Origin: Candidatus Cybelea sp.
GTDB lineage: Bacteria; Vulcanimicrobiota; Vulcanimicrobiia; Vulcanimicrobiales; Vulcanimicrobiaceae
DNA length: 53,028 bases
Reading direction: 5' to 3'
NCBI GenBank assembly: GCA_036489315.1
Contig: DASXFZ010000015.1
Location: 1 to 53,028, forward strand
A program made the translations under genes and the position numbers. Below the pieces are notes generated by a model. That model ran no database searches. It had not been told where the DNA came from and worked only from the letters and a program-made list of their open reading frames with translations. Shown in pieces: positions 22,793 to 30,997 of this stretch. Positions within the stretch are counted from its first letter, which is position 1; the number at the start of each line of letters is the position of its first letter.

Positions 22793-22846
22793 ATGTTTCG
22801 CATTTCACGGCGCACGGCGCCGTTGTTTGGGATTTCCGTTTTATGA
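22793..22846 (+). CDS. 17-residue leader ORF coupled to the thioredoxin gene
   Basis: ATG at 22793 with a perfect GGAGGAG at 22781-22787 (5-nt spacing). It encodes MFRISRRTAPLFGISVL and its TGA overlaps the ATG of the next gene (ATGA at 22843-22846). This is the strongest ribosome-binding site in the region, so it is probably a real leader peptide that delivers ribosomes to the copper operon. No regulatory codon run or Cys/His is present. Confidence 0.6.
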   Translation: MFRISRRTAPLFGISVL

Positions 22847-23478
22847 GTACCCGAGCGGAGCGCCGCCGAGTCGTTCGGCGAGCATCGCGCGAAAGCGTCA
22901 CATCGCCCAAAGTTCGCGCCGTTGCCGCCTTCGTTACAGTTGCTCTCGCGATCTGCATTGCGGCCATCACGTTCGTCGCACGCAGGAGCGTGCCGCCGAG
23001 TGCAACTGAAGCACCGGCCTACGCCTCACTAACAAAGGGCGGCGTTGCCCCGCCCTTTGCGGTCACAACGCTGACCGGATCTCACCTAGACTCAAGGCGG
23101 ATTGCCGAGCCGATCATGCTTGAGATTTTCGCCACGTGGTGCCCGCACTGTCAGCGAGAGACTCAGACCATCAGACGATTACGGCGAGCTTTCGGTGACC
23201 GTCTCTCGATCGTAGCCGTTACGGGGAGCGATATTGCCTCCGACCATCAGTCGGTCGAGACGTCCGAAGACGTTCGCCTTTTCGCACGCTATTTCGCCGT
23301 CAACTACCCAATGGCGTACGACCCCGGCCTCACCGTTGCCCAGCAATATTTGCAGGGCAGTTTCCCAACCATCGTCTTCGTCAATCGCGCAAAACGCATT
23401 TCGTCCGTTGAGATAGGGGAGATCGATCTAAAACGGCTGTCCGCCGACGCCCGGGCTGCCGGCGTAACGGGAGGATAG
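22843..23478 (+). CDS. Membrane-anchored TlpA/ResA-like thioredoxin
   Basis: 211 residues: a basic N-terminus, one membrane anchor (residues 26-46, AVAAFVTVALAICIAAITF), then an exported thioredoxin fold. The active site is ATWCPHCQRET near residue 100; the cis-Pro loop is GSFPTIVFVN. The insertion and the GDRLSIVAVTG strand are those of TlpA/ResA/DsbE-type reductants, which keep cysteines reduced during cytochrome or copper-centre assembly. As the first main gene of the copper operon it probably prepares Cu sites in the exported proteins downstream. Its ATG overlaps the stop of the 17-residue leader. Confidence 0.87.
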   Translation: MSTRAERRRVVRRASRESVTSPKVRAVAAFVTVALAICIAAITFVARRSVPPSATEAPAYASLTKGGVAPPFAVTTLTGSHLDSRRIAEPIMLEIFATWCPHCQRETQTIRRLRRAFGDRLSIVAVTGSDIASDHQSVETSEDVRLFARYFAVNYPMAYDPGLTVAQQYLQGSFPTIVFVNRAKRISSVEIGEIDLKRLSADARAAGVTGG

Positions 23479-23479
23479 C

Positions 23480-24361
23480 ATGCATTTTCGAGCGAGCGCC
23501 GCGAGAACCGTCGCGATCGGAATTACGCTTATGGCCGCCTTATTTGTTTCGACGCCCGGTTGCGTTCGTGCAGCGGAAAACATCGCCGGCAAGGACATCA
23601 TCTTCAACGGCACGGTTCCAATGAACGCCTACCTGCACGAGACTCCCGGGCCAAGTGGCACGACGCATATCGACATGTGGGAAGTCCACAACGGGCGCGT
23701 AGTCACAGCCTACGATATCGATATGACGAAGATCATGCACATGATCGTCGTCTCGGACGACCTCGTCGACTTCCGGCACGTACACCCGGTCTTGCAATCG
23801 AACGGTCACCTCGACATCGACCTCAACCTGCCCCAGAGGCAGGGCGGCTACCACATCTATATCGATGGGTTGCCGCACGGCATCGGGCGACAGGTCTTTC
23901 GTTTCGACCTTCCCTCGGGGAGCAGTGTGGCGCCGGCGCGGCACCTGCACCCGCCCGGCGGAACCGTCGTCGTCGGCCCATACACGGTAACGATCGACCC
24001 GACAGCGGTCCCGATCGGGGAGATTTCCACCGTTTCCGTACGCATCCTCAAGAACGGCCGGCCGGCGAGAGATCTTCATCCGTACCTCGGCGTGATGGCT
24101 CACGGTGTTTTTATCGGCGTCAAGGATCTCGCCTACATGCACGCCCACGGCATGAGCGAGGCCATGCTGAATTCGGCCAATTCGAACGATTGCGGCGACA
24201 GTATGATGATGGCGATGACGCCGATGCCGCCCGGCCTCAACATCGGCAACGAGTTCGAATTTCAGATTCTCGCACCGAGCGCTCAGCCTTACGATTTTTG
24301 GCTGCAGTTCGTCGGTGGAAAGACGGTCTACACGGCTCCCTTCTTGGTGACGACCATCTAA
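23480..24361 (+). CDS. Exported His/Met-rich protein, YtkA-like metal-associated domain
   Basis: 293 residues; GGGAGG lies just upstream of the ATG. Sec signal to about residue 31 (LMAALFVSTPGCVRA, AEN). Features: KIMHMIVVSDDLVDFRHVHP near residues 88-107, then LPQRQGGYHIYIDGLPHG. This is the 'DLxHxHP ... GxYxxYxD' pattern of YtkA/FixH-like domains often linked to metal efflux or copper delivery. A C-terminal stretch is rich in Met/His (AYMHAHGMSEAML, DSMMMAMTPMPP), fitting Cu(I) binding. Predicted role: periplasmic copper carrier or sensor for the operon. It ends in TAATG, overlapping the next gene by 1 bp. Confidence 0.8.
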   Translation: MHFRASAARTVAIGITLMAALFVSTPGCVRAAENIAGKDIIFNGTVPMNAYLHETPGPSGTTHIDMWEVHNGRVVTAYDIDMTKIMHMIVVSDDLVDFRHVHPVLQSNGHLDIDLNLPQRQGGYHIYIDGLPHGIGRQVFRFDLPSGSSVAPARHLHPPGGTVVVGPYTVTIDPTAVPIGEISTVSVRILKNGRPARDLHPYLGVMAHGVFIGVKDLAYMHAHGMSEAMLNSANSNDCGDSMMMAMTPMPPGLNIGNEFEFQILAPSAQPYDFWLQFVGGKTVYTAPFLVTTI

Positions 24362-24855
24362 TGCGCGCAGTTGCAACGTCAACGTGTGCTTTGCTTCTGG
24401 CGTTCGGCGCGGCTTCAATTGGCGCGATGGGACACGTGCGCGTGTTCCCTGACTCCAATAATACGCAGACGCCCGCTTGCAGCTATGCGAAGTTCGTCGT
24501 TCGCGTTCCCGTCGAGAGAAACGTGCCGACGAATCGAATCGACCTAGCGATTCCGAAGGGCGTGGTCGTCTTTGCCGTCCAACCGAAGGCCGGCTGGCAG
24601 TTCACACTCCAGAAAACGCGAGGAATTATCACCGGCATCTCTTGGAGCGGGGGGCGTCTCATGCCCGAAGAGTTCGATGAGTTTGCCTTTATCGCGGCGA
24701 CGCCGAAGACGCCTGGGCCAATCAGTTGGGACGCCAGCCAATACTATGAAAATGGCGAGATCGTTCGCTGGACCGGAGCGCCCAAGAGCGACACGCCCCA
24801 TTCCGTCACAACCGTAGTGCCCGGGAAATGCTCCACGAGAAAGAAGGTGAAATGA
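24361..24855 (+). CDS. DUF1775/YcnI-like periplasmic copper-binding protein
   Basis: 164 residues from the ATG at 24361 (TAATG overlap with the previous gene). The signal peptide MRAVATSTCALLLAFGAASI ends at AMG and would expose the mature N-terminus HVRVFPD. YcnI/CopI proteins bind Cu(II) through this N-terminal His (histidine brace). The family wording continues with YAKFVVRVPVERNVPTN, VQPKAGWQF and ISWSGGRLMPEEFDEFAF, ending with WTGAPKSDTPHSVTTVVPG. The C-terminal tail is basic and no membrane anchor follows. Role: periplasmic copper buffering or delivery. Confidence 0.88.
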   Translation: MRAVATSTCALLLAFGAASIGAMGHVRVFPDSNNTQTPACSYAKFVVRVPVERNVPTNRIDLAIPKGVVVFAVQPKAGWQFTLQKTRGIITGISWSGGRLMPEEFDEFAFIAATPKTPGPISWDASQYYENGEIVRWTGAPKSDTPHSVTTVVPGKCSTRKKVK

Positions 24856-25961
24856 AATTGGCGCATCCGGCCGCGGGAGCCGCCGCGCCTTCGCCCCCCC
24901 GCGATTTGCGCGCGCAGCGTGCCGCAGCCCCTATTCTGCTCGATTGGCTGGTGACGCTGGCAGCGGTCTGGATCATGACGGGCCTCTTCATCGATGCTCA
25001 CCAGCACCTTTTCATGGCCGTAGAGTCATTTCTCAATCCGTGGCACATGACCATGTACACGGGTGCGGTCTTTGCCGCCGCGGTGTTGGGCGTGGCAATC
25101 GCCGCCAACTATCGCCATGCCGGCTCGTTTTGGAAGGCCGTCCCCCACGGCTACGCGCAGAGCGTGGTCGGTGTCGCGGCGCTGCTCGTCGGCGGCGCGC
25201 TGGACGCCGTCTGGCACTCGATCTTCGGTTTTGAGCACCAGCTCGATCTGCTGCTCAGCCCCCCCCACCTGTTCTTGCTCACCGGCCTCTTTTTCCTGAT
25301 TACCGGCCCGGTCCGCAGTGCGCTCGCCCGTCCCGACCCATCGAATCTGCTCGAGCAACTGCCGATGCTCGTCGCGCTCGGGCTCGCCTTTGAGATCGCG
25401 CAGTTCCTGACGCAGTATGGCTTTTATCCCGAAGCCCTGATGCGTGACCACCCATTGTCGCAAACGGCCTATCACAGCGAACAGTTCATTCTATCCGTCT
25501 TCCTCTTTTACAGGCAAGCGCTGGAGATCTCAATTATAATTTGGCAGAGCGTGCTGCTTGCCGCGGCGGTCTTGTACCTATGCGTTCGCAAGCGGCTGCA
25601 CTTCGGCGCGCTCATAATACTCTGCATCGTCGAAAAGCTTTGGATCGGCGGTGAGCTTTCGAGCGATTTCAAAGAGCTTCTGCTGGTCGTGCTTGCGTCG
25701 GCTGCAGCAGGGCTCGTGGGGGACATTGTCGTGGCGAAGTTACGACCCTCGTCGGAGCGTCCTAACGCGTTCCGGCTCCTGGGATTCGTCGTGCCGTCGA
25801 CCTACTTTGCGGCGTATTTTGCCTTCGCGGTTCCCCTGTTTGGGGGAACGTGGTGGGATGCGAGCTTCGTCTTCGGGTCGATTGTCGAGGCGGGAATCGT
25901 CGGCCTCTGCGTCAGTCAGCTCATGCTCGCTGCGTCGCCAAATAACTCTGGTACCGCATGA
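24852..25961 (+). CDS. PmoC/AmoC-like multi-TM membrane protein A
   Basis: 369 residues from the ATG at 24852 (ATGA overlap with the DUF1775 gene; AAGAAGGTG upstream). About nine hydrophobic segments. The putative metal site is D48-x3-H52-x12-H65 (in FIDAHQHLF and FLNPWHMTMY), then D118-x3-H122-x5-E128 (in LDAVWHSIFGFE) and SPPH139. The spacing (+4, +13, +53, +4) matches the CuC/CuD ligands of PmoC by published residue numbers (156, 160, 173, 227, 231; +4, +13, +54, +4), with Asp for Asn227. The homology is inferred from this spacing; overall identity looks low. Its neighbours are copper proteins. It shares GFE..LLSPxHL and GPVRSxL with the paralogue at 26404. Confidence 0.68.
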   Translation: MKLAHPAAGAAAPSPPRDLRAQRAAAPILLDWLVTLAAVWIMTGLFIDAHQHLFMAVESFLNPWHMTMYTGAVFAAAVLGVAIAANYRHAGSFWKAVPHGYAQSVVGVAALLVGGALDAVWHSIFGFEHQLDLLLSPPHLFLLTGLFFLITGPVRSALARPDPSNLLEQLPMLVALGLAFEIAQFLTQYGFYPEALMRDHPLSQTAYHSEQFILSVFLFYRQALEISIIIWQSVLLAAAVLYLCVRKRLHFGALIILCIVEKLWIGGELSSDFKELLLVVLASAAAGLVGDIVVAKLRPSSERPNAFRLLGFVVPSTYFAAYFAFAVPLFGGTWWDASFVFGSIVEAGIVGLCVSQLMLAASPNNSGTA

Positions 25962-25965
25962 AGTG

Positions 25966-26409
25966 CTATCGAATGAGTATCGGCACGACGCGCTCGTCGG
26001 TATCGCCGCGCGTGTTGCGCGCGATAATGTGAAGCGTGTAGGCACGACGGTATTGCGGGATAATGTCCAGGACGTCTTGTGAGAAAACGAAGTCTCCAAA
26101 ACGGCGATGGTCGGCCGCGAAAGAGAACGACTCGGTGCGCACTTCGACACTCGCCACGTTGGTTGACGTCACGATTCGCCCCATCCATCGCCGGCCGGGT
26201 CGAATCGTCGTTTCGTTCATCCATACTGCTAGAATGTGCGGTGCCGCATCGGGTGGAAGCGCTTGCGGCGCCGGCCAGGGAGATGGCGCGTCGAGAACGC
26301 GATTTGCCGCGAGCATGCGCCCGGTGGTCTGCGAGCACGCGGGCGCAACGAGCACGGCGAGCATCGCTAGCAGGGATCGCGTGAAGTACGCGGGGTGCGT
26401 CTCATGCAT
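25966..26409 (-). CDS. Small lipoprotein on the opposite strand inside the copper operon
   Basis: 147 residues from the ATG at 26409: signal HPAYFTRSLLAMLAVLV with lipobox APAC, then a beta-rich domain (HILAVWMNETTIRPGRRW, VASVEVRTESFSFAADH, AYTLHIIARNTRGDTDE). The wording is protein-like and not a shadow: the complementary plus strand has no usable frame of this quality. It converges within 4 bp of the first PmoC-like gene, and its start codon faces the start of the second PmoC-like gene almost base to base. The domain looks like an Ig-like/bacterial surface fold; function is unknown. An antisense position inside an otherwise co-directional operon is odd. Confidence 0.68.
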   Translation of the reverse strand: MHETHPAYFTRSLLAMLAVLVAPACSQTTGRMLAANRVLDAPSPWPAPQALPPDAAPHILAVWMNETTIRPGRRWMGRIVTSTNVASVEVRTESFSFAADHRRFGDFVFSQDVLDIIPQYRRAYTLHIIARNTRGDTDERVVPILIR

Positions 26410-27465
26410 CGCGTAGTCGCTTTCGACGCGGCATCGCATCCCGCTGCAAATATCTCATACGATTGGGCAATGACCGTTGCCTCGCTATGGCTCTCCGGCG
26501 GCATCATGATCGATGCGTGGTATCATTTTCACTCGACGGTAGAAACGTTTTTCGAGCCGGCGCATGCGCTGCTCTATTCCGGTTTGCTTACCAGCTACAT
26601 CTTTACCGCCGTCGCAGTCGCCGCAGGTCGCCGGCAGGGACACCCCTGGAAGGCTGCGCTGCCGAGGGGGTACGGCATTACCGCCGCCGGCTTGATCGTA
26701 TGCCTCGCCGGCGGTTTGGCCGATATGGCCAAACACGCGCTCTGGGGATTCGAGGAAGGGTTCAACGCTCTCTTGAGCCCGACGCATCTCCTGATCGGTG
26801 TCGGGATGCTCTTGATCATCGCCGGCCCGGTGCGCTCGGTGCTCGACCGGCCGAGTCCGCCTCGAACGTTGCTTGCGCAGCTGCCGCTGGTACTTTCCGC
26901 GGCATCGATGATGGAGCTGGTACACTGGGGAACGCAATTCGTCTTTTTAAGCGAGGCCGAAAAGATGAACGCGCCGATATCCCCAGTCAGCATACCACAC
27001 GAGACCCTTACGTTGCTCACGCTGCAGTACGATAAGGAGGGAATCGGTTTGCTGGCGGTCATCGTGCAAAGCCTGCTAACCGCCGGTTTCTTTCTCTATC
27101 TTGCGCGGCGCGTGCGGCTTGCGCCGGGCGCGATGGTCGTGCTCTTCCTTGCCGGGAATGCCTTCGTCGCGGCAGCTCATTCAAATTATATCGGGCAGTT
27201 CGTCGCGGTGATCGTCGCCTCGGCGATCGCGGGGTTCGTCGCCGATGGTTTCGGATTGGATCCTGCCGATCAGCTAAGCTCCCGCTGGGCAATCGCGGCA
27301 TTTATGGTTCCAGCAGTGTACTGGGCGGTGCTGCTCGCCGTGCTCGCACTCGCGATGGGCGGAATCTGGTGGACCCCGGACGTCATCTCCGGTTCCATTC
27401 TCTTCGCCGGTCTCGTCGGGCTTTTCGTGAATGCGTTGACCGGCCCGTTCGTCGCGCACCGATGA
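26404..27465 (+). CDS. PmoC/AmoC-like multi-TM membrane protein B
   Basis: 353 residues from the ATG at 26404 (CGGGG upstream; a GTG at 26395 would add three residues). A paralogue of the protein at 24852 with the same topology. Metal-site candidates are D37-x3-H41-x12-H54 (MIDAWYHFH and FFEPAHALLY), then D107-x3-H111-x5-E117 (LADMAKHALWGFE) and SPTH128; spacing is identical to protein A (+4, +13, +53, +4). Also shared are a GG-x2-D turn before the D-x3-H, GPVRSVL, and TQ-x-x-F. It overlaps the CopC-CopD gene by ATGA. Having two copies suggests a heteromeric complex or two sites. Confidence 0.68.
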   Translation: MHRVVAFDAASHPAANISYDWAMTVASLWLSGGIMIDAWYHFHSTVETFFEPAHALLYSGLLTSYIFTAVAVAAGRRQGHPWKAALPRGYGITAAGLIVCLAGGLADMAKHALWGFEEGFNALLSPTHLLIGVGMLLIIAGPVRSVLDRPSPPRTLLAQLPLVLSAASMMELVHWGTQFVFLSEAEKMNAPISPVSIPHETLTLLTLQYDKEGIGLLAVIVQSLLTAGFFLYLARRVRLAPGAMVVLFLAGNAFVAAAHSNYIGQFVAVIVASAIAGFVADGFGLDPADQLSSRWAIAAFMVPAVYWAVLLAVLALAMGGIWWTPDVISGSILFAGLVGLFVNALTGPFVAHR

Positions 27466-29507
27466 GCGTCATGGCGCTCCGGAGGGCCTGGTCGCGCTTG
27501 TTTTTGAAAGCACTATTCGCTTTTGCGTTGCTCTGGGCATTATCGCCGAGCGCGGCCGGAGCGCACGCCTACATCGTCGGCGCGCAGCCTCCGGCAGATA
27601 GCAGCTACCAGCAGCCGGCCGGGGCGATCGCGATATCCTTTGACGAGCCGGTCGAGCTGCTCGACTCAAATGCCATGCAAGTCTTTGACGGTCACGGAAA
27701 GCGTATCGACCGCCGCGACGCAGCCGTCGACCCGCAAGACGCAACGCGGGTAATCGTAAACCTGCCCCGGCGGCTCGACTCGGGTATCTACACGGTGCGC
27801 TGGCGCGTCATTTCAGCCGATACGCACGTCGTTCACGGCATCTATCGAATCGGCGTTGGCGTACCCGTGACGCAGGGTACTGTGCTGGAAGCCGCGTCGC
27901 CATTCGACCCATCCGCCGCGCCGGCGTCGGTACTGCGGTGGTTAAGCCTGATGGGCGCGCTGCTTGCAGGCGGAGCGATTTTCTTGCGGTGGTACTTGCT
28001 GGATCGGTTGGAACTTGCCTATCCCGGAGGCATCGCCACCGCTCGGCGCGGCGCGCTCGCAGGCGCACTCGTACTCTTGGCCGTCGCCATCCCAAGCCTG
28101 ATCGTCCAGGCGTCCGCCGCCGGCGGTGCCTTTGGGCAGGATATCGGAGCGACGCTGCTGCGAACGATTTGGGGCGTCGCGTTCCTGGTCCGCCTAGTTG
28201 CCGCCGTCGTCGTGCTCTTCGTCGCACTTTTCGCCTGGAAGCCGCTCAGCCGGATTGCGATCGTTTCGATCGTTATCTTGCTGGCCACCTTCAGCGCATC
28301 GGGTCATGCATTAGCTCAATCGAGCCTTAGCGCTCGCGCAATCGCCATGCTGGTAGACTTTGCGCATCTTGCCGCCGCCGCGGCGTGGATTGGCGGCCTC
28401 TTTATAATTGCTGCGATATTGTTGCCCCTTTGGCGGGCCCGCGACGTCAGAACGACGGAACGGACCCAAGCCCTTTTTGTGGCTTTTACTCCACTCGCAA
28501 TGGCGTGCGTCGCCATTATCGTCGTCAGCGGAGCGTATGCGTCGGTTATTCACCTTGGGCATATCGGCGATCTTGTAGGGTCCACCTACGGGCGCGTGCT
28601 TCTCATTAAAATTATCGTTGTGGCAGTTCTGTTGCTGCTAGGTTGGCGGCACTTTCGCATCGGGGCTGGAAGGAGCGCCGCGCCGGGTATCGCCACGCTG
28701 GGATACGAAACGCTCGCCGGCATCGTCGTTGCGCTGCTCACGGCGATCTTGGTCGGACAAATGCCGCCCGCGCACCTACCCGCATCGACCTCGTCGACCC
28801 CTTTGGAACTCGCCGGGGTTCTCTGCATCTTGGCGATCGTACGCTTCGCGTCGGCGAAAAAGGGCCGTACAATTGGGCCTTCAACCACGCCGGCAACTAG
28901 GTCTCTAGACCTCGCAATCATCGCGGGATCGGCCGCGCTTTTCTTAATCACGGTCGTGGTCGGTGGATACTCAGTAGAGTCGGCCTCGATGTGGCCGACG
29001 CTGCAGCTTAACGACATCGTGCTAGTCGACCGGCTAACCTATCGGCTGCGCTCCCCCCGGCACGACGACCTCGCGGTCTTCGTGCCGCCCGTGGAATCCG
29101 GCGGCAAGGACTTCGTAGAGCGTGTGGTCGGCGTTCCGGGCGACGAGATCGCAATCCGCGACGGGATCCTCTATCGAAACGGCAAGGCGCTTGACGAAGT
29201 GCCCGAGCAACAACCGGGTGCCTACGATTTAGCGATTCGGGACTACGAAATCTACATCGACGGTGACCCGCTCGACCCCCGCACGGCGGACGTACCGCCG
29301 AGGGCGCTCTGGCAGGCTCCGGACCGTATTCCAATGGGCTTCTATCTTTTGCTTGGGGACAACCGAAACTACTCGTACGACTCGCACATTTGGGGCTTCG
29401 CTCAGAGCGGCGGAGTGTTCGTGGCCGGACCACTGGCGACGCGAAACGTGCGCGCCGGCTTTGTGGGCATCTCTCGCGGCGTCATTTGGCCGCTGGGCAG
29501 ACTGTAA
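27462..29507 (+). CDS. CopC-CopD-signal peptidase I fusion protein
   Basis: 681 residues from the ATG at 27462 (ATGA overlap with the previous stop). Domain order: signal peptide to A34; CopC domain 35-140 with mature N-terminal His35 (HAYIVGAQPP) and the second ligand region DTHVVHGIYRIG (His122, His125); CopD eight-TM region about 150-470; then a type I signal peptidase domain from about 490 with its own TM. The peptidase has ESASMWPTL (Ser509), FVERVVGVPGDE and LLGDNRNYSYDSHIWG boxes. The general-base Lys that should precede RVVGVPGD is Glu553. CopC/CopD import or bind copper; the fused peptidase is unusual. The reading frame is continuous through both junctions. Confidence 0.85.
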   Translation: MSVMALRRAWSRLFLKALFAFALLWALSPSAAGAHAYIVGAQPPADSSYQQPAGAIAISFDEPVELLDSNAMQVFDGHGKRIDRRDAAVDPQDATRVIVNLPRRLDSGIYTVRWRVISADTHVVHGIYRIGVGVPVTQGTVLEAASPFDPSAAPASVLRWLSLMGALLAGGAIFLRWYLLDRLELAYPGGIATARRGALAGALVLLAVAIPSLIVQASAAGGAFGQDIGATLLRTIWGVAFLVRLVAAVVVLFVALFAWKPLSRIAIVSIVILLATFSASGHALAQSSLSARAIAMLVDFAHLAAAAAWIGGLFIIAAILLPLWRARDVRTTERTQALFVAFTPLAMACVAIIVVSGAYASVIHLGHIGDLVGSTYGRVLLIKIIVVAVLLLLGWRHFRIGAGRSAAPGIATLGYETLAGIVVALLTAILVGQMPPAHLPASTSSTPLELAGVLCILAIVRFASAKKGRTIGPSTTPATRSLDLAIIAGSAALFLITVVVGGYSVESASMWPTLQLNDIVLVDRLTYRLRSPRHDDLAVFVPPVESGGKDFVERVVGVPGDEIAIRDGILYRNGKALDEVPEQQPGAYDLAIRDYEIYIDGDPLDPRTADVPPRALWQAPDRIPMGFYLLLGDNRNYSYDSHIWGFAQSGGVFVAGPLATRNVRAGFVGISRGVIWPLGRL

Positions 29508-29557: not shown

Positions 29558-30997
29558 ATGATACGAAAGGCATTCTTGAAAAGCGGGATGAGTGCGATGG
29601 CGGCGGCCGCGATCCTTCCAAGGACGCACCAGGCGCTCGCAAGCGAGGTAATTAGTTACACGCTGACGTCGGCGCCCTTGAAATTCTCGCCGTCGCCCGG
29701 ACTTGCATTCGCCGGCTTGGCTTACAACGGGTCGATCCCCGGACCGGTATTACGAGCCGCCTACGGGCAGCGCGTGCGCATTCGCTACGTCAGTCGAGTC
29801 GCTATACCGACGAGCGTGCATTGGCACGGTATGATTCTTCCAAACGCCATGGACGGCGTTGCCTCAGTGACGCAGCCGCCAGTCCTCGAAAATGGCGAAT
29901 TCCTGTACGAGTTTACCGCAGGTCCCCCCGGAACGCGCTGGTATCACGATCACGCCTTTCACATGGGGCTTTCACGCGGGCTTTTCGGTATGTTCGTCGT
30001 CGACGATCCCAGCGATGAGCCGGCTGACAGGGAGTTCGCGCTTGTTTTTCACGACGTTCCGCAGTGGAGCACGGTCGACGCCGCCGAGCGTGGTATCAGC
30101 GGCGTTCCAATGACGATGCTGCCGGGTTCACCGGAGGCGCTAGCAATGACGGCGATGCGTTCCTCTCATAAGATGGGAGATGAGGTGGCGTACGCGGCAC
30201 ACTGTATCGACGGCGCCACGTATCCGCGAACGCGCAGACTCGCCGTCAGGCTCGGCGACCGCGTTCGGCTGCGCATCCTCAATGCGAGTCCGACCGAGAC
30301 ACGCTACGTTAGCCTCGCCGGGCATCGCTTCACGGTTACCCACAGCGACGGGAATCGCCTTGAGTCACCGATTGCGGTCGACGCCCTGCGAATCGGCGTC
30401 GGCGAACGCTACGACGCCTACTTCGAAGTGAGAAAGCCCGGTGCGTTCTTGCTTCAGGGCCTCACGGGGGGGCCGGCCCCGCACCAACAGGCGGCACTCT
30501 TTTACACCGAAGGGATGGAAAACGCACAGCCGGCGGAGAGTCCGCAGACGCTAGTCGGCGTCGATTATTTCACCTACGAAAAGGCGGCGGGCGGGGCGGC
30601 CGCCCCGTCGGCCGAAACGCTTGGATCGTTGCGATACGAGTTCACGCTTGGGGGCGGCGCGTGGGGCAGCAATCGCTGGACGATCAACGGGGCGACATGG
30701 CCCGATACGCCAAAAATTCTCGTACGACGCGGCGACCGCGTCTCGGTGCACTTCAAAAATACCACCGATATGGAGCATCCGATGCACCTGCACGGCCATG
30801 CGTTCGAGCTCGTCGAGGTAGGTGGAACGTGGCTTGCACGGCCGCTTTCGAAAGATGTCTCCATCGTACCGGCTAATGGGGGGACGACGACGTGGCGATT
30901 CACCGCAAACTCGCTGTCCGGACGCTGGCTGCTGCACTGCCATAACGAGATACATGCGATGGACGGGATGATGACCGAGGTGAGATATGAATCCTGA
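29558..30997 (+). CDS. Multicopper oxidase (laccase/CopA-like)
   Basis: 479 residues with a signal peptide (GMSAMAAAAILPRTHQALA) and three cupredoxin domains. All four copper motifs are present: HWHG at 88-91, WYHDH at 128-132, HPMHLHGH beginning near 407, and HCHNEIHAMDGM at 460-471. The Cys461 / His-x3-His / Met471 arrangement is that of a type 1 site with an axial Met. It should oxidise a periplasmic substrate (Cu(I), phenolics or an electron donor) with O2. It lies 50 bp downstream of the CopC-CopD fusion gene and its end overlaps the 36-residue TM gene, so it belongs to the same transcript. Confidence 0.92.
   Translation: MIRKAFLKSGMSAMAAAAILPRTHQALASEVISYTLTSAPLKFSPSPGLAFAGLAYNGSIPGPVLRAAYGQRVRIRYVSRVAIPTSVHWHGMILPNAMDGVASVTQPPVLENGEFLYEFTAGPPGTRWYHDHAFHMGLSRGLFGMFVVDDPSDEPADREFALVFHDVPQWSTVDAAERGISGVPMTMLPGSPEALAMTAMRSSHKMGDEVAYAAHCIDGATYPRTRRLAVRLGDRVRLRILNASPTETRYVSLAGHRFTVTHSDGNRLESPIAVDALRIGVGERYDAYFEVRKPGAFLLQGLTGGPAPHQQAALFYTEGMENAQPAESPQTLVGVDYFTYEKAAGGAAAPSAETLGSLRYEFTLGGGAWGSNRWTINGATWPDTPKILVRRGDRVSVHFKNTTDMEHPMHLHGHAFELVEVGGTWLARPLSKDVSIVPANGGTTTWRFTANSLSGRWLLHCHNEIHAMDGMMTEVRYES

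Follow-up and report, generated by a model that had tools for sequence, protein, structure and literature searches.

The CuMMOs are climate-relevant copper enzymes that drive methane and ammonia oxidation; they are hard to express, and the site at which copper acts in them has long been disputed. They are described as three-gene enzymes (PMC6215863). In pMMO, the CuC site is formed by Asp156, His160 and His173 and the CuD site by Asn227, His231 and His245 (PMC12576850), and extended pmo/amo operons include genes for CopC, CopD and sometimes PCuAC (PMC6189053).

Here we analysed a 53,028-nucleotide stretch of contig DASXFZ010000015.1 from the soil bacterium Candidatus Cybelea sp. (assembly GCA_036489315.1), hereafter the window, which encodes two membrane proteins, P0001 and P0002 (Table 1), of a family with four copies in the source genome (3.09 Mb assembly). 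The family is new and widespread, lies on the margin of the CuMMO superfamily and is a distant relative of PmoC/AmoC, the active-site subunit of methane/ammonia monooxygenase; by membership criteria it is neither pMMO nor PF04896.

Table 1. Features of the window discussed in the text (positions of the window)
Feature	Position	Strand	Description and basis
TlpA/ResA-like thioredoxin protein	22843..23478	+	copper-cluster neighbour
His/Met-rich secreted protein	23480..24361	+	no Pfam family above cut-off
DUF1775 (YcnI-like) protein	24358..24855	+	Pfam E 5.2e-18
P0001	24852..25961	+	subfamily A of the PmoC-like family, 369 aa with ten long helices in the prediction; translation, AlphaFold2 model, family alignments
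PmoC-like ligand region of P0001	24993..25268	+	D48, H52, H65, D118, H122, E128, H139
C-terminal half of P0001 (residues 160-369)	25329..25958	+	PmoA-like / S-component-like fold
RxRLxxGA motif of P0001 C-terminal half	25587-25610	+	conserved G287/D291 also in this half
Small putative lipoprotein P0005	25966..26439	-	head-to-head with P0002; no Pfam match
P0002	26404..27465	+	353 aa, second paralogue, subfamily B; translation, pairwise comparison
PmoC-like ligand region of P0002	26512..26787	+	D37, H41, H54, D107, H111, E117, H128
C-terminal (PmoA-like) half of P0002	26848..27462	+	aligned with the P0001 C-terminal half
CopC-CopD fused to signal-peptidase S26 domain	27459..29507	+	domain search
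Multicopper oxidase	29558..30997	+	domain search

Ligand motif and relation to PmoC

The initial annotation had recognised in both proteins the motif D-x3-H-x12-H, followed after 53 residues by D-x3-H. The spacings of +4, +13, +53 and +4 can be read off both P0001 and P0002, with the step from the third ligand to the next Asp being +53 in each, and the H-x5-E continuation and a later SP-x-H are likewise present in both. The seven P0001 ligand positions of Table 1 align, in that order, to D156, H160, H173, N227, H231, E237 and H245 of PmoC, the numbering of which was verified on DGTWH (156-160) and NEWGH (227-231). For CuC, D48, H52 and H65 of P0001 and their P0002 equivalents stand at +4 and +13. 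For CuD, the equivalents of His231 and His245 are invariant but Asn227 is replaced by Asp, a substitution that had been pointed out for the two paralogues and that holds for every family member shown. The second His step is also three residues longer than in PmoC (17 from H122 to H139 vs. 14 from H231 to H245), and Arg165 of PmoC has no conserved counterpart in P0001 and P0002.

It had further been argued that the paralogues differ in most other residues, and that conservation of just these positions would speak for a metal site. The positions are indeed conserved, but the pair is 34% identical over 338 residues, and the argument is weaker than claimed: at this identity the shared spacing is to be expected from common descent, so the pair proves little by itself and is not independent evidence. 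Plain paralogy as the whole account of the spacing was dropped after the multi-phylum alignment of 65 sequences, in which the same seven positions are invariant, gaps aside. Within the phylum of the window each of them is invariant in 70-72 of 72 relatives, the two exceptions being gaps. In some members of the family the last step of the D48-H52-H65 equivalents is +14 or +15, compared to +13 in P0001 and P0002. Of 15,418 unrelated ORFs, 3 likewise carry the short pattern of the initial annotation, taken with a gap of 50-56 residues. The extended pattern D...H.{11,15}H.{40,75}[DN]...H.{5}E.{4,10}[AS]P.H was found in 128 of 134 family ORFs, in 21 of 23 PmoC/AmoC sequences and in 0 of 15,418 others.

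The likeness to PmoC/AmoC covers four consecutive helices that carry D-x3-H-x12-H and then (N/D)-x3-H-x5-E-...-(A/S)P-x-H; the order is that of PmoC/AmoC and so, as predicted, is the end of the bundle on which these residues lie, and an FTPxH motif is common to both groups. On the other hand, identity in the aligned core is about 20%, the family scores below the Pfam gathering cut-off, and its N-terminal half is fused to a second, six-helix half. A sequence search against Pfam AmoC (PF04896) and the PDB, which had been suggested as a check, gave no match to either: PF04896 was found neither in the source genome nor in any of the 65 members by a search that does detect it elsewhere, and in Pfam, NCBIfam and PDB sequence searches the family is unnamed and without a match.

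Profile comparisons support the resemblance. A family HMM run against 15.5k ORFs plus controls gave ten non-family matches at E<1, all of them PmoC/AmoC with the ligands aligned (best 1.1e-5; archaeal AmoC 2.9e-5), and with a PmoC HMM run against the 15.5k ORFs around family genes the top 12 matches were all family members (best 1.5e-5; P0002 0.014). The PmoC/AmoC controls were taken from M. capsulatus (full match to PDB 7ev9_C and 1yew_C), from actinobacterial and Methylomagnum plasmids, from viral contigs with pmoC and archaeal amoC, and from genomes with PF04896 matches. Alignment of the N-terminal half with PmoC by hhalign gave a P of 1.8e-4 and a probability of 49%, with D/H/H/(D-N)/H/E/H all in register, and none of 200 block shuffles reached this score (z 4.3-4.6).

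Weak matches in the Chloroflexota and Actinomycetota scans led to a bridging branch, found in Chloroflexota (L300, L301, L305, L306, L296-L298, L304 and L313). The motifs of the L300 and L305 types, D-x2-W-H-x4-R-x7-H and D-x2-W-H-x5-D-x7-H, have exactly the intra-motif spacings of PmoC, and 7 of the 9 members checked have an Arg at the position of PmoC Arg165. Compared with PmoC, the branch gives a match at 2.4e-8 (probability 95%); compared with the window family, it gives one at 2e-17 (probability 99%). The homology of the N-terminal half to PmoC is therefore both transitive and direct. The relationship to PmoC/AmoC that had been proposed from spacing is thus supported at the sequence level by profile HMMs in both directions, by hhalign and by the bridging branch. 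Three members of this branch (L300, L301 and L313) appear by eye to end in an Ig-like domain and a final TM helix, a region that has no Pfam match.

Predicted fold and the C-terminal half

The AlphaFold2 model of P0001 (pLDDT 92.1, pTM 0.89) places the ligands on one face, where helices 28-54 and 102-125 end and helices 63-90 and 137-158 start. The predicted helix order and ligand positions are right for a PmoC core, and the ligands, all at one end of four predicted helices, may cluster in space. Loops on the ligand face have 0.3 Lys+Arg on average (1.1 in the longest) and loops on the opposite face 2.2-2.5. Because the Lys- and Arg-bearing loops lie on the opposite face, the predicted metal sites should, by the positive-inside rule, face the periplasm. 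A Foldseek comparison of such a model with PmoC had also been suggested; the model is confident, but neither it nor the model of the C-terminal half had a match at E<=0.001. In a structural comparison of the whole P0001 model, PmoC was absent among the matches listed, and those to the N-terminal part were generic four-helix bundles.

The C-terminal half of P0001, modelled alone (pLDDT 90.7, pTM 0.88), matched seven PmoA/AmoA entries (4phz, 9cl6, 9leg, 6cxh, 9pxf, 7s4l and 9cl2, of which chain 9cl2_Ca is the PmoA (beta) subunit) at Z 8.8-9.4 and ECF S-components at Z 7.9-11.9, with the top values of 11.9, 11.2 and 10.8 above those of PmoA and the next unrelated fold at Z 7.7; structural Z values below 13 can reflect a common helical arrangement. 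The modelled half superposes on these seven PmoA/AmoA (PF02461) chains with an rmsd of 3.5-5.6 over 157-171 residues, and the two have in common RxRLPxGA, in the turn that follows helix two, and a later Gly/Ala-x3-Asp. The initial annotation had not noted this probable resemblance. The identity, however, is 5-8%, the profile match is not significant, and S-components score as well or better. In hhalign, R-x-R-L-P-x-G-A and the later Gly/Ala-Asp were aligned in a weak match to PmoA (P 0.018), which lies within noise, as 7 of 200 shuffles were equally good. An hhalign comparison with PmoC and PmoA concatenated in either order, PmoC-PmoA or PmoA-PmoC, did not discriminate between the two.

The S-components (5edl, ThiT 3rlb/4tkr) have the same six-helix fold, at an identity of 14% or less, but in the family this half is attached to a PmoC-like half, and none of the vitamin-transporter partner genes (EcfA/EcfT) was seen near family genes. 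In our judgement, a match to PmoA in a half that is joined to a PmoC homologue is unlikely to be a coincidence. Judged from the models, a relationship of the C-terminal half to PmoA is well supported, although not proven, and its derivation from an S-component-like fold is possible.

Copper genes at the family loci and distribution

Copper genes accompany the family in several lineages. In the window, the TlpA-like, His/Met-rich and DUF1775 genes lie on one side of the pair and the CopC-CopD-S26 and multicopper oxidase genes on the other; DUF1775, CopC-CopD-S26 and His/Met-rich genes are again found beside family genes in two genomes of the same genus (G007 and G008). Seven Anaerolineae-type loci have a YtkA and PCuAC lipoprotein gene directly downstream, a few bases past the end of the family gene. 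A multicopper oxidase precedes the family gene at L046, and copper ATPases are encoded in the vicinity of L131 and L139. Many members outside Eremiobacterota have no obvious copper gene alongside.

Methanotrophs and ammonia oxidisers have the same association with CopC, CopD and PCuAC in their extended pmo/amo operons, but neither pmoB nor a separate pmoA was found near the family genes. A PmoB profile gave 0 matches in the 15.5k ORFs around family genes and 17 in control loci, and no convincing match to a separate PmoA was seen in these ORFs. Neither PF04744 (PmoB) nor PF02461 (PmoA) was matched in 148 genomes of the phylum, in a search that included no positive control, which makes their genome-wide absence less certain. 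Since CuMMOs are described as three-gene enzymes, the absence of PmoB near family genes is a real difference. Three of 400 genomes from the phylum to which L155 and L121 (the latter titled Chloroflexi) belong have true pmoCAB-type genes (L292-L294, in G442, G482 and G480), with PF04896 and PmoA/PmoB neighbours; in G480 and G482 the new family is present as well.

A small lipoprotein gene, divergent from and head-to-head with a family gene, as P0005 is in the window, is present at 74 of the 123 family-bearing loci examined, in Eremiobacterota only; it was considered as a PmoB relative and gave no signal. The listed starts of P0002 and of this gene overlap by about 36 bases (26404-26439), and probably one of the true starts is more internal, or one gene contains a promoter.

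Of 149 genomes from the window's phylum, 82 have relatives. Scanning GTDB genomes yielded 530 confirmed stretches; among the best 80 of these 530, which were retained, the record titles name Candidatus Eremiobacterota, Chloroflexi, Ktedonobacteria (Dictyobacter), Actinobacteria (Saccharothrix, Aquiluna), Rokuibacteriota, Peribacteria, a Nitrospirae and a Spirochaetaceae MAG. In genome samples, the family was present in 61 of 331 genomes from the phylum to which L121 (titled Chloroflexi) belongs and in 22 of 326 from the phylum that includes Saccharothrix. L155, titled Proteobacteria, groups with the phylum of L121 in the genome sampling, which suggests a mislabelled record. On viral contigs no close relative was found, and literature searches, with thin coverage of subscription journals, returned no description of the family.

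Some relatives depart from the window proteins in architecture. In L048 (6056-7903), L049, L050, L051, L053 and L070 the family domain spans about 600-630 aa and contains an inserted WD40-like (PD40) beta-propeller; the insertion point is the loop that follows helix five, on the face where the metal sites are predicted. The Chloroflexota members L303 (2408-3850), L302 and L314 have lost the Asp/His ligands, and L303 has a C-terminal extension that looks helix-turn-helix-like by eye, possibly a sensor version.

Oxidation, copper handling or another metal

With moderate confidence, we read P0001, P0002 and their relatives as copper-binding single chains with a PmoC core and a PmoA-like part, without PmoB, that most likely serve an O2-dependent oxidation. 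The N-terminal half would form a PmoC core of four helices. Its two carboxylate/His/His sites, at the end of the bundle that points away from the cytoplasm, would be equivalent to CuC and CuD, Asp replacing Asn227. The C-terminal half, having the fold common to PmoA/AmoA and ECF S-components, would pack against this PmoC-like bundle; one chain would then combine the equivalents of PmoC and PmoA, with PmoB absent, and the family is probably such a PmoC-PmoA single-chain form. Periplasmic CopC-CopD, DUF1775 and PCuAC would deliver copper to the D/H/H sites, which we infer to be occupied by this metal. Copper binding is likely; catalysis is possible, and with the bound copper the chain may oxidise a small or hydrophobic substrate in an O2-dependent reaction.

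Could the family handle copper without being an enzyme? The bundle would then take up, store or pass on copper at or across the membrane, together with CopC-CopD and DUF1775/PCuAC, for the maturation of cytochrome oxidase or multicopper oxidase, an explanation that has a minor but real probability and that on present evidence is nearly as good as oxidation. The neighbours are copper trafficking proteins, PmoB is missing, the C-terminal half resembles S-components, which are substrate-binding membrane subunits, and uses other than catalysis are suggested by the degenerate variant that is poor in ligands and extended at its C terminus. Nevertheless, the ligand set, an invariant Glu included, is that of the pMMO site thought to be catalytic, and a path for transport would require less; no EcfA/EcfT partners were seen near the genes, and true pMMO operons have the same copper neighbours (PMC6189053).

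The replacement of Asn227 by Asp in every member yields two D/H/H triads plus Glu, and would also suit an iron or zinc membrane metalloprotein with two 2-His-1-carboxylate triads, possibly dinuclear, that has only ancestry in common with PmoC. We consider this improbable: many members do occur without a copper gene alongside, but the copper-gene neighbourhood is found in several lineages independently. Far less probable still is convergence, by which an unrelated multi-TM family would have arrived at the PmoC-like D-x3-H and H spacing by chance. The empty Pfam and PDB sequence searches, the Foldseek result at E<=0.001 and the absence of PmoC among the listed structural matches for the N-terminal half would fit such an origin, but PmoC/AmoC are the sole non-family matches at E<1 in 15.5k sequences, the bridging branch joins both groups at 2.4e-8 (PmoC) and 2e-17 (family), and the full motif is confined to family and PmoC/AmoC sequences, with 0 of 15,418 other ORFs carrying it; convergence is thereby close to refuted.

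A bolder form of the oxidation reading, which we offer tentatively and regard as somewhat unlikely, is that of a catalytically active, PmoB-free single-chain copper monooxygenase in pmoC-pmoA order. It would be distributed across Eremiobacterota, Chloroflexota, Actinomycetota and other phyla, and might be similar to the ancestor that gave rise to the methane and ammonia monooxygenases of three subunits. With a widespread outgroup in which the PmoC ligands are kept but PmoB is missing, one could ask whether the PmoC/PmoA core alone can bind copper and activate oxygen, and the CuMMO tree could be rooted. Such an outgroup would also give a candidate metal site to hundreds of currently unannotated proteins, some of them in Dictyobacter and Saccharothrix, and the single-chain form could make a minimal CuMMO core testable.
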